DNA of 64,000 bases from positions 1,054,001 to 1,118,000 of the forward strand of contig NZXX01000001.1 in NCBI GenBank assembly GCA_002702065.1, in the 5' to 3' direction. This document shows positions 50,556 to 56,323 of the stretch, in pieces; the stretch's first letter is position 1; every line of letters begins with the position of its first letter. A model generated the notes under the pieces. The model worked only from the letters and a program-made list of their open reading frames with translations. It made no database searches and was not told where the DNA came from. The position numbers and the translations under genes are program-made. The DNA is from Anaerolineaceae bacterium (GTDB lineage: Bacteria > Chloroflexota > Anaerolineae > Aggregatilineales > Phototrophicaceae).

Positions 50556-50867
50556 TCAGGTGGCGCGGTCCATAATTTTGCGGAACTTGTAACCGTAAAC
50601 GATCATGCCCTTACGACCCTCGGCAGTCAGTTTGCGCGTCACCATTTCAACGCGGTCACCGATTGCGACGGGGCCATCCATATCCGTTAACTGCGCCGTC
50701 ACCAGCGGCCCCTCATCCAATTGCACGAGTGCCAACGTGTAGGGGGCCTGTTCTTCAAAACCCTCAGGAGGTTCCCCCAGGGTGGTGTACGTATAGATCG
50801 ACCCTGTGCCGGCAAAGGCAAACGGCTGCGGTTGGAACTCGACCTGTCGTTTATTTGTGGGTTCCAT
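50556..50867 (-). CDS. DUF35 OB-fold protein (C-terminal half), acyl-CoA pathway partner
   Basis: A 103-residue protein matching the OB-fold part of DUF35/ChsH2 proteins: FAGTGSIYTYTTLGEPPEGFEEQAPYTLAL is split between strands of that fold, and VTRKLTAEGRKGMIVYGYKFR ends it. In archaea, DUF35 proteins bridge thiolase and HMG-CoA synthase so that acetoacetyl-CoA is channelled. HMG-CoA synthase lies 1.5 kb upstream on the same strand, which suggests the same role here (inference). The zinc-ribbon half is normally on the same chain but is a separate gene here, 9 bases upstream and in another frame. Confidence 0.82.
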   Translation of the reverse strand: MEPTNKRQVEFQPQPFAFAGTGSIYTYTTLGEPPEGFEEQAPYTLALVQLDEGPLVTAQLTDMDGPVAIGDRVEMVTRKLTAEGRKGMIVYGYKFRKIMDRAT

Positions 50868-50875
50868 GAATGAAC

Positions 50876-51055
50876 CTAGCGACCGACGGTGCTAACTTGG
50901 TCGTAGCTGTACGCTTCTTTATTCAGCACAACCTGTCCCTGTTCACTCTGGGTGATCAGGCGACGCGGCTGCAAACTGAACTGTCCATTCGGATTACGAA
51001 AACCTTCGAGACGGTAGCGTTGTGCGTTGAGGCGCCAGTGACGTGAAATCTGCAT
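50876..51055 (-). CDS. Small DUF35 N-terminal-like protein with lost zinc ligands
   Basis: A 59-residue protein starting at ATG 51055 behind AGGAG and ending at TAG 50878-50876. It opens ISRHWRLNAQRYRLEGFR, the usual start of DUF35 zinc-ribbon domains (helix, then RYRL-G). Where the family has Cys-x-x-Cys pairs, this protein reads RNPNGQF and ITQSEQG, and it contains no Cys at all. It therefore cannot bind zinc in the usual way. It lies 9 bases before the OB-fold gene and should be co-translated. The two proteins add up to the length of one normal DUF35 protein. Confidence 0.72.
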   Translation of the reverse strand: MQISRHWRLNAQRYRLEGFRNPNGQFSLQPRRLITQSEQGQVVLNKEAYSYDQVSTVGR

Positions 51056-51113: not shown

Positions 51114-51170
51114 ATTATAGGGATTTGGGACTATCAAAAGCTATCAGAAGGCCCTTTTGCCTATCAAAGA
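51114..51170 (-). promoter_or_regulatory. Promoter with phased direct repeats for the DUF35 pair
   Basis: A perfect TATAAT on the minus strand (51119-51114) lacks a good -35. In its place, CTATCAAAAG-like units start at 51131, 51141 and 51161, spaced 10 and 20 bases apart, so all lie on one face of the DNA. This suggests an activator site. The transcript start near 51107 is 52 bases before ATG 51055. Confidence 0.55.
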
Positions 51171-53530: not shown

Positions 53531-54826
53531 CTACAAAGTGAGTTCTGATACCAGTTCTTTGGCGCGTTCCAGCCGGATGTTGCCTTCTTCGATCATGGTC
53601 TGCACGATGCGCGGGATGAGGTCGCCCTCGGCCCCGGCAGCGACAGCCAGCTGCTTGGCGTGCAGGCTCATGTGGCCGCGCTGAATACCCTCGGTTGCCA
53701 GTGCCCGCATCGCGGCTAAGTTTTGCGCCAGCCCGACTGCGGCGATCACTTCGGCGAGCTGCTGCGCCGATTCGATGCCGAGAATTTTGAGCGCGACCTG
53801 GGCAGTCGGATGCACGCGGGTGGCGCCGCCGACGATGCCCACCGACAACGGAAGTTCGATGTTCCCGCGTAGATTGCCATCTGCGTCCTGCGACCAGTGG
53901 GTCAGGCTGGTATAAGCACCATTGCGCGCGGCGTAAGCGTGCGCCCCGGCTTCGATGGCACGCCAGTCATTGCCCGTGGCGATAATTACCGGATCAACGC
54001 CGTTCATAATGCCTTTGTTGTGGGTGGTCGCGCGATACGGGTCAATCTCAGCAAACACGCCTGCTTCGACAATCGACTGCACGACCGCTTCACCGGACAG
54101 CGTTTTGGTAGCCAGTTCTGCCGCCGGAATGACCCCTTCCGCCCGTGCTTTGCGCCGGTCCGTCAGGTTGCTGAGGATGCGCAGGTTCACCCGCCCGCCG
54201 GTCAGCGCTTCGATGTGCGGAGCCAGATGTTCCGCCGCCGTGTTAATGGCATTCGCGCCCATCGCGTCACGGCAGTCGTACAGCAGATGAACGACCAGCA
54301 TGGGGCCAATAGCAGTTTGCGGGAAGGGGCGCACTTCAATGTCGCGGGCGCCGCCACCCCGCTTGACGATGCTGCCGCCGACTTCATCGGCAATGTGCAA
54401 CAAGCGCGCCTTGTCATTCAGGACCGCGCGGCTGGCTGCGTTCAGGTCTGCGACATCCAATACCTGAATCTGACCGATCATGATGGGGTCGTCGCTGCTG
54501 GTCACAAAGCCCCCGCCAGCACGGAACAGGCGGGCCGCATTACTCACGGCTGCGACGACCGACGGTTCTTCGATGACCATCGGGATCAGATAATCGCGCT
54601 GGTTGATAAGAAAGTTGGTGGCGATACCCAGCGGCAGGCTGAACGTCCCGACGACGTTCTCAATCATGTGGTCGGCCTGTGCCGTTGATAGGCCAGCGTC
54701 GCCCACCAGAATGGCACGTTCGTCAGACGAAAGGCCAGCCCAGTCCGCGACCAGGGTCGCGCGCTCGTCGAGGCTGCGTTTGTAAAAACCGGAAATGCGT
54801 GATGTTGGCGTTTGTGTCGATGTCAT
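53531..54826 (-). CDS. mvaA: Hydroxymethylglutaryl-CoA reductase, class II
   Basis: Reduces HMG-CoA to mevalonate with NAD(P)H. It has 431 residues from ATG 54826; an in-frame TTG at 54856 lies in a promoter-like TTGACA and would add ten. Catalytic Glu is in VIEEPSVVAAVSNAA (about residue 86), Lys in HNKGIMNGVDPV, Asn/Asp in IATGNDWRAIEAG, and His in RGHMSLHAKQLA. The soluble form without membrane helices and these motifs fit class II. First gene of the mevalonate-linked cluster. A -10-like TACACT lies 6 bases before ATG 54826, so this transcript may also be leaderless. Confidence 0.94.
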   Translation of the reverse strand: MTSTQTPTSRISGFYKRSLDERATLVADWAGLSSDERAILVGDAGLSTAQADHMIENVVGTFSLPLGIATNFLINQRDYLIPMVIEEPSVVAAVSNAARLFRAGGGFVTSSDDPIMIGQIQVLDVADLNAASRAVLNDKARLLHIADEVGGSIVKRGGGARDIEVRPFPQTAIGPMLVVHLLYDCRDAMGANAINTAAEHLAPHIEALTGGRVNLRILSNLTDRRKARAEGVIPAAELATKTLSGEAVVQSIVEAGVFAEIDPYRATTHNKGIMNGVDPVIIATGNDWRAIEAGAHAYAARNGAYTSLTHWSQDADGNLRGNIELPLSVGIVGGATRVHPTAQVALKILGIESAQQLAEVIAAVGLAQNLAAMRALATEGIQRGHMSLHAKQLAVAAGAEGDLIPRIVQTMIEEGNIRLERAKELVSELTL

Positions 54827-54914
54827 GGGTCTAGTGTAACGGGTTGAACCTGTCAATTGCTATCAGATTGGTGAAAAACAGCACAAATTGCCCGATGGTT
54901 TGATGGGTAAATGG

Positions 54915-55475
54915 CTAATCTTCATAATACAGGGCGATCTGCTCCCAGTTTAATTGAGGCTGCTGGTAGGACACAAGCTGCCAGGTCGATGCCTTGATGC
55001 TTCCCTCCCAGGCCACCTCATCATTGATGCGTAAGGTCGCTTGCTGGTCCGGCTCGACGTGTAAATAGAGTTTGTTGGCAGCTGCCGGACGGATGTGAAT
55101 GAACGCCCTCCAGTAAGGTTGCTCCGCATTGGATGAAACAGAAAAATAACCCTGATTGTCGATCAAGATAGTCTGTGTGGCCTGGGCATCGAAGATCTGG
55201 ATGCCCCATGCGGAGTTCGATGCACCGTGGTTGGTGGCCGTCAGCTCCAGTGTAAAGGCAGCCGGTAGCTGCACAGGGGCGGGGCTAAAGGTCCAATCCT
55301 CGGATTGCGTTTGTGTTTCTATCCAATCTACGGGTGATTCAACCCGCCATTGCAGCGTACCTGCGCGCGGCGGATCTGCCAGGCCAAGCCCCAGCAAGAT
55401 GGAAAGCGTGAATCCGCCGATGAACAGCATCAGACTGATGAGGAGGGTGATCCGCCAGCGAATGATCGTTGACAC
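54915..55475 (-). CDS. Membrane-anchored protein of unknown function
   Basis: A 186-residue protein with an N-terminal membrane helix (ITLLISLMLFIGGFTLSILLG is its span) and an outside beta-rich domain of about 150 residues with many Trp, Gln and Ala (ATLRINDEVAWEGSIKAS). The pattern recalls jelly-roll carbohydrate-binding domains, but no family can be named. It starts with GTG 55475, which lies at the predicted transcript start. Its promoter overlaps that of the divergent deacetylase gene completely. Confidence 0.7.
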   Translation of the reverse strand: MSTIIRWRITLLISLMLFIGGFTLSILLGLGLADPPRAGTLQWRVESPVDWIETQTQSEDWTFSPAPVQLPAAFTLELTATNHGASNSAWGIQIFDAQATQTILIDNQGYFSVSSNAEQPYWRAFIHIRPAAANKLYLHVEPDQQATLRINDEVAWEGSIKASTWQLVSYQQPQLNWEQIALYYED

Positions 55476-55510
55476 TGAATAACGTTATCCGTATGCTTTG
55501 TCTCATGCAA
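55469..55510. promoter_or_regulatory. Interlocked divergent promoters with leaderless starts
   Basis: Plus strand: TTGACA (55469-55474), 17 bases, TATGCT (55492-55497), then ATG at 55505, right at the expected start. Minus strand: TTGCAT (55510-55505), 17 bases, TAACGT (55487-55482), then GTG at 55475, again at the start. Each start codon abuts or forms the -35 of the other promoter. Confidence 0.65.
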
Positions 55511-56323
55511 TGGACCGATTTTACCAGACAGATTCTATTTGCCGGGCTGCTGTTTGCGCTGGTGACGGCTGGTGCTCCGGCGCAGGCACAACCTTCATGG
55601 GATGGCACGCTGCGGCGGGTTCATGTGCCGATTCTGATGTATCACTATGTGGGTGTGCTGCCGGAAGACGCCGATGATGTGCGTCGTGATCTGACCGTCC
55701 AGCCGGATGTGTTTGAAGGACATCTGCGGTATCTGGTCGAACAGGGTTATTCCACCATTACGCTCTATCAGTTATATGATGCGCTGATGCTTGGGGCACC
55801 CCTGCCGCCCAACCCCATTGTGCTGACGTTTGATGATGGCTATATCGACCACTATGCGACGGTCTTTCCCCTGCTACAGCAGTATGGCCTGACCGGGACA
55901 TTTTTTGTGATTACCGGACGCGCCGATGCGAACGATCCGGCCTACGTCAATTGGGTGCAGATTAATGAAATGGCGCAGGCGGGCATGAGTATGGAGCCAC
56001 ATACCAAGTCGCATATGAGCCTGCACGAGCGCGACCGGGATTTTCTGGTCTATGAAATGCTGGGCAGCAAGCAAAGTTTGCAGGCACACACCGGGATGGA
56101 CGTGCGCATGTTCGCCTACCCGGCAGGGCGCTATGATGATGAAACGCTGCGTATCGCTACTGAGGTCGATTTCCAACTGGCGGTAACCACTCAACCGGGG
56201 ATGCAGCATGTTACCAGCGGTCTGCTTGAATTACCGCGTGTACGAGTCAGCGGCAATACCAGTGTTTCGGGGTTCGCCTATCTGCTGCGAGGCGACTGGT
56301 TGGTCCAAATAAAAAGAGGCTGA
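55505..56323 (+). CDS. Secreted polysaccharide deacetylase (NodB type)
   Basis: About 272 residues from ATG 55505, the position predicted by the promoter. The signal peptide covers FAGLLFALVTAGAPAQAQ. The NodB domain has VLTFDDGYIDHY (catalytic and metal Asp), SMEPHTKSHMSLH with the two metal His residues, and FAYPAGRYDDETLRIA. PILMYHYVGVLPED before the domain is typical of the PgaB/YheN-like group. It removes acetyl groups from GlcNAc or MurNAc polymers at the cell surface. In-frame upstream starts at 55469 or 55493 lie inside the promoter. Confidence 0.92.
   Translation: MQWTDFTRQILFAGLLFALVTAGAPAQAQPSWDGTLRRVHVPILMYHYVGVLPEDADDVRRDLTVQPDVFEGHLRYLVEQGYSTITLYQLYDALMLGAPLPPNPIVLTFDDGYIDHYATVFPLLQQYGLTGTFFVITGRADANDPAYVNWVQINEMAQAGMSMEPHTKSHMSLHERDRDFLVYEMLGSKQSLQAHTGMDVRMFAYPAGRYDDETLRIATEVDFQLAVTTQPGMQHVTSGLLELPRVRVSGNTSVSGFAYLLRGDWLVQIKRG

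Follow-up and report, generated by a model that had tools for sequence, protein, structure and literature searches.

The window analysed here, a stretch of 64,000 nt from an Anaerolineaceae bacterium (Chloroflexota), carries two divergent genes whose starts lie close together. The rightward gene, B (55505-56323, plus strand), encodes a secreted polysaccharide deacetylase of the NodB type, which falls within PF01522 (1.4e-27; 96.5 bits against a gathering score of 23.1). We found B in 42 of 98 family genomes (E up to 1e-60), and its divergent partner, A, in 15 of the 98; the one other genome of the same genus that was searched gave no match to A. Residues D110, D111, H166 and H170 of the deacetylase are invariant among 16 aligned orthologs, and so are the TFDD and HTxxH residues, the motifs of the family; the four named residues belong to its catalytic motif.

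The leftward gene, A (54915-55475, minus strand), is predicted from a structural model and fold matches to encode an N-terminal membrane helix followed by a ConA-like (galectin/CBM66-type) jelly roll. The predicted structure (pLDDT 95) begins with a long helix, here read as a membrane anchor, and residues 35-186 superimpose on PDB entries 8aa2, 1oq1 and 4b1l with Z of 12.8-13.7 and rmsd of 2.7-3.5, the top match (Z 13.7 over 141 aligned residues) assigning the model to the ConA-like fold. Searches of Pfam and NCBIfam with A matched no family. The matches are to ConA-like proteins with a wide range of functions, including toxin domains, and the likeness therefore gives A a predicted lectin fold and no function. 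A is followed on the minus strand by the genes for HMG-CoA reductase (53531-54826; searched as 53531-54829, one codon longer; PF00368 at 3.1e-116, TIGR00532) and then HMG-CoA synthase.

Where A and B meet, four hexamers can be read as two promoters pointing apart: a plus -35, TTGACA (55469-55474), with a plus -10, TATGCT (55492-55497), and a minus -35, TTGCAT (55505-55510, read 55510-55505), with a minus -10, TAACGT (55482-55487, read 55487-55482). A preliminary description of this DNA had taken them for interlocked promoters, each giving a leaderless mRNA, and had proposed that deacetylase and surface protein are expressed in mutual exclusion. Reading the sequence confirms the position of all four hexamers and both 17-nt spacers, and the ATG of B (55505-55507) does lie within the minus -35; the GTG of A (55475-55473), described as abutting the plus -35, instead overlaps the last two bases of TTGACA.

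Conservation and geometry of the deacetylase promoter

For comparison, we pooled B loci from searches with 80 loci from named genomes, which left 92 loci after deduplication. The named genomes are for the most part MAGs of Anaerolineae and other Chloroflexi, some called Aggregatilineales, and would by themselves place the window in the class Anaerolineae. The 87 with at least 100 nt of upstream sequence were counted and the 5 with shorter upstream sequence were left out. A stands divergent to B in 11 of these 87 loci and not in the other 76.

The plus promoter, TTGACA-17-TATGCT, carries 10 of 12 consensus bases and scores highest among 7 such sites in 8 kb, where shuffled sequence yields 3.5 +/- 1.8. 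The pattern TTGACN-17-TATNCT occurs upstream of B in 17/87 ortholog loci as compared with 0/87 on the opposite strand, and with a mean of 0.003 loci expected from 300 first-order Markov resamples. It is present in nearly all loci with a divergent A (10/11), TTGAC being kept together with TATNCT at equal spacing, and the sole exception, L041, has about 600 bp separating A and B. A further 7 of the 76 loci without a divergent A carry it as well, and the promoter is therefore independent of A. The strict pattern is absent from 70/87 loci, mostly the more distant ones. Since the pattern counted was derived from the window, its fixed letters are invariant in the promoter alignment by selection, and only the number of loci counts as evidence. 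That alignment holds 15 of the 17 pattern loci; in the remaining two (L107 and L120) the pattern lies more than 300 nt from the reference residue.

The 17-nt spacer shows a mean identity of 34% between loci. Because the hexamers recur while the spacer is not conserved, the plus promoter, with its -35 and -10 within the 16-18 nt spacing of the sigma70 type, is on comparative evidence a real, selected promoter of that type. Only this half of the divergent pair originally described held up. An uncultured Chloroflexota lineage thereby gains a sigma70-type promoter that is conserved and open to test. Two other reasons for the conservation were considered: the idea that the hexamers are kept for encoding the N-terminus of A is ruled out by the A-less loci that retain them and by locus L005, where they are read in a different frame, and a regulator site common to both promoters between the hexamers has left no sign in the 17-nt spacers. 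Across the 6.77 Mb of the genome, the strict pattern followed by ATG (TTGACN-17-TATNCT-N5-9-ATG) occurs at only two sites, of which the second is followed by a Shine-Dalgarno-like motif and a GTG-started frame and looks leadered.

The ATG of B lies 7 nt after TATGCT, which begins 13 nt before it, and no Shine-Dalgarno sequence occurs in the 16 nt upstream (ccgtatgctttgtctc); the gene thus shows both marks of a leaderless start, a TANNNT about 12 bp ahead and the lack of a ribosome-binding motif. This geometry is over-represented among the orthologs. In 11/87 loci an in-frame ATG follows a TANNNT that has a -35 of at least 4/6, the distance being 12 nt in 6 loci and 13 nt in 5, as compared with 20 cases over the 31 other distances, or 0.65 loci per distance, in the same 87. 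Among the 15 aligned promoter loci, ATG follows the -10 by 6-7 nt in five (L001, L002, L003, L005 and L008), as it likewise does in L032, and L107 has a leaderless-type start as well; in the other 10/15 the first usable B start comes 15-119 nt after the -10, L048 having an additional TTG at 7 nt. Judged from these distances, a leaderless B recurs among the orthologs without being fixed, and in the window genome the B mRNA is probably leaderless, with a predicted start on the ATG or one base before it. To this extent the leaderless mRNA originally proposed for B is plausible. In L042, a short inverted repeat (GGGCGGGTTTCTAAACCCGCCC), terminator-like or like a mobile repeat, lies in the B leader between the plus promoter and B.

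That the genome favours leaderless starts in general was considered too, and a survey of start signals in 464 kb of it (323 ORFs) speaks against it. Shine-Dalgarno-like motifs peak 7-17 nt before first ATGs, at up to 91 per 1000 as compared with about 6 at late ATGs, and TANNNT 11-14 nt before the first ATG stays near flank level and is not clearly enriched. These figures argue against leaderless genes being common in this genome, which looks Shine-Dalgarno-led; B would then be a case of one gene family repeatedly using a leaderless start in such a setting.

Gene A and the minus strand

In the window genome, A has no start codon before its membrane helix other than the GTG at 55475-55473. The reading frame extends further in some relatives: the sole ATG, GTG or TTG that precedes the helix in L046 and in L048 lies beyond the plus -10, and L040 offers, apart from a far start, just a TTG within the helix. 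With no nearer start available, the A frame in these three loci must span the whole B promoter, which rules out a start of A from the proposed minus promoter in them. Far starts with a Shine-Dalgarno sequence occur in L002 (TTG, strong motif) and L046 (ATG, GGAG). Of the 10 A loci that carry the promoter, 7 allow an A start within it or to its left, requiring no full crossing. In L005, A crosses the promoter in a frame unlike that of the remaining loci, and what is conserved is therefore the DNA and not the A protein. In two loci (L032 and L101), A and B adjoin on the same strand rather than diverging, with a B promoter of leaderless geometry, and from these the link between A and B may be functional whatever the orientation.

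The highest-scoring minus-strand site in the region (8/12) is a candidate A promoter, TGGTAAAAT, at 55518-55526 inside B, read as an extended -10 type and paired at a 16-nt spacer with a weak CCGGCA at 55545-55540. Transcription of A from such a site, within the 5' end of B, could occlude the B promoter and so repress it, giving an asymmetric switch, and the A ORF does cover the plus promoter in L040, L046 and L048 and, judged by its Shine-Dalgarno sequence, in L002. However, a search of the -20..+100 region of the A-divergent loci revealed no conserved minus promoter, the best sites scoring 6-8/12 at differing places, and the B promoter is the same in genomes without A. Occlusion of this kind is rather unlikely. 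That the 5' interlock was itself selected, the B promoter being kept in the A coding start so that A transcription occludes it, is likewise unlikely; if true, two cell-surface polysaccharide proteins would be under asymmetric control of an either-or kind.

The arrangement first proposed, in which RNA polymerase could occupy only one of two interlocked leaderless promoters at a time, draws on the four hexamers with their 17-nt spacers and on two features of the window: TAACGT lies 12 nt ahead of the A GTG, the distance expected for a leaderless start, and the in-frame TAA inside it closes the A frame upstream, leaving that GTG alone. However, the minus pair, TTGCAT-17-TAACGT, has 3 + 3 = 6/12 consensus bases, and sites at least as good turn up in the window once per 21 nt of strand at spacings of 16-18; fixing the spacing at 17 makes this one in 50 nt, and requiring a TANNNT -10 as well makes it one in 901 nt. 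At the homologous columns, the other 14 aligned promoter loci all score 1-5/12 and none keeps the hexamers, so that the conservation of all four hexamers put forward as a check fails for these two. TANNNT 11-14 nt before candidate A starts appears once in the other 10 A-divergent loci, as TAGGCT at a remote start in L043; such a TANNNT is present at the window GTG and is not conserved. A leaderless start of A, the other half of the earlier proposal, comes down to the single TAACGT of the window and is not supported, and the minus hexamers look like a chance resemblance, near the level expected. Given the position of TAACGT, the window could still hold a lineage-specific minus promoter. As for mutual exclusion, with the minus hexamers unconserved and the A frame crossing the plus promoter in three relatives, such a device is very improbable.

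A B start at ATG 55493 (within the -10) or TTG 55469 from a promoter further upstream, with a leadered mRNA, is scarcely credible: no stop interrupts the frame as far back as TTG 55469, but neither codon has a Shine-Dalgarno sequence, and L002, L003, L005, L008 and L032 have ATG 6-7 nt after the -10.

We favour, at a probability of roughly four in five, a single directional promoter for B, probably leaderless, with minus hexamers that arose by chance and with no switch. One conserved housekeeping (sigma70-type) promoter would drive the secreted NodB-type deacetylase rightward. A would begin atop this promoter, its frame running across in some relatives, and evolution would have retained the plus promoter while the A start wandered, so that the locus would illustrate how a start codon can drift across the promoter of its neighbour. 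A would have its own promoter elsewhere, most probably to the right, within the 5' end of B, and there would be no dedicated mechanism for mutual exclusion. Of this account, the position of the actual transcript ends, the location of the A promoter and the absence of a switch are what we infer.

A repeated element on the mevalonate side

A 33-bp element, TGATAG-N3-TTGANAG-N11-TANNNT, lies ahead of the HMG-CoA reductase gene (54833-54865, minus strand), and a second copy (51114-51146, minus strand) precedes a gene pair consisting of a small ORF and an OB-fold-like ORF, located a few genes beyond HMG-CoA synthase. Both are conserved: the element gives 68 matches in 43/98 family genomes, as compared with 2 for the reversed pattern, and is often found twice per genome, about 3.7 kb apart. 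All 30 element loci that we fetched (L169-L198) fell to one of these two positions, with HMG-CoA reductase in 18 and the small ORF with the OB-fold-like ORF in 12. At the reductase, the repeat alone is found in 31/32 loci, and a slightly looser form of the element, with ATG 6-8 nt after it, in 23/32, which gives the reductase start a leaderless geometry in those 23. This conservation makes the element a candidate for a mevalonate-pathway regulon common to two neighbouring transcription units, and it is a stronger finding than that of the divergent promoters.

The leader that follows the second element often contains a small inverted repeat, GTGCAGAAATGCAC (e.g., L172, L176, L192 and L198), of which the window has an imperfect copy at 51100-51087 on the minus strand. 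Further along the same strand (50556-51055) are two short ORFs of 59 aa and 103 aa in different frames, in a place where a single acyl-CoA-associated OB-fold protein could be expected; since both pieces recur in relatives at much the same distance, these may be two genes rather than a frameshift.

Comparison with known systems

In promoters of the PhoB type a direct-repeat activator box takes the place of the -35, and the TGATAG-N3-TTGANAG element resembles such a box. A has the jelly-roll fold in common with ConA-like lectin, galectin and CBM66 domains (8aa2, 1oq1, 4b1l), and differs from them in its low identity (8-12%), in belonging to no named family and in its N-terminal helix anchor. B resembles NodB-homology polysaccharide deacetylases, including the PgaB-like TIGR03938, in its Pfam match and its TFDD and HTxxH motifs, but it is only 272 aa long and scores 104.2 bits against TIGR03938, below the equivalog cut-off of 321.9.

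Leaderless signals, with TANNNT about 12 bp before the start, are reported in PMC3160421 for 4 of 12 Chloroflexi genomes, at a mean of 4.7% of genes. B is like the sigma70-type leaderless genes described there in having TATGCT 13 nt before ATG and no Shine-Dalgarno sequence; it differs in also keeping a full consensus-like -35 at 17 nt.

Bidirectional promoters, as defined in PMC12825309, have start sites on both strands flanking or within a shared -10, with distances between the start sites of commonly 10, 18 or 23 bp. The A/B site is similar to those of E. coli in that divergent genes have candidate core elements in the same DNA. Its two -10 hexamers (55492-55497 and 55482-55487) do not overlap, however, its predicted starts are 29 bp apart and its minus elements are weak and unconserved, which speaks further against an interlocked pair. 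According to the same paper, basal transcription from the five E. coli bidirectional promoters tested is too low for competition; true bidirectional promoters therefore need not exclude one another's transcription, and overlap is weak ground for presuming exclusion. The A/B site also shows that, of two promoters recognized by eye, only one may be real.
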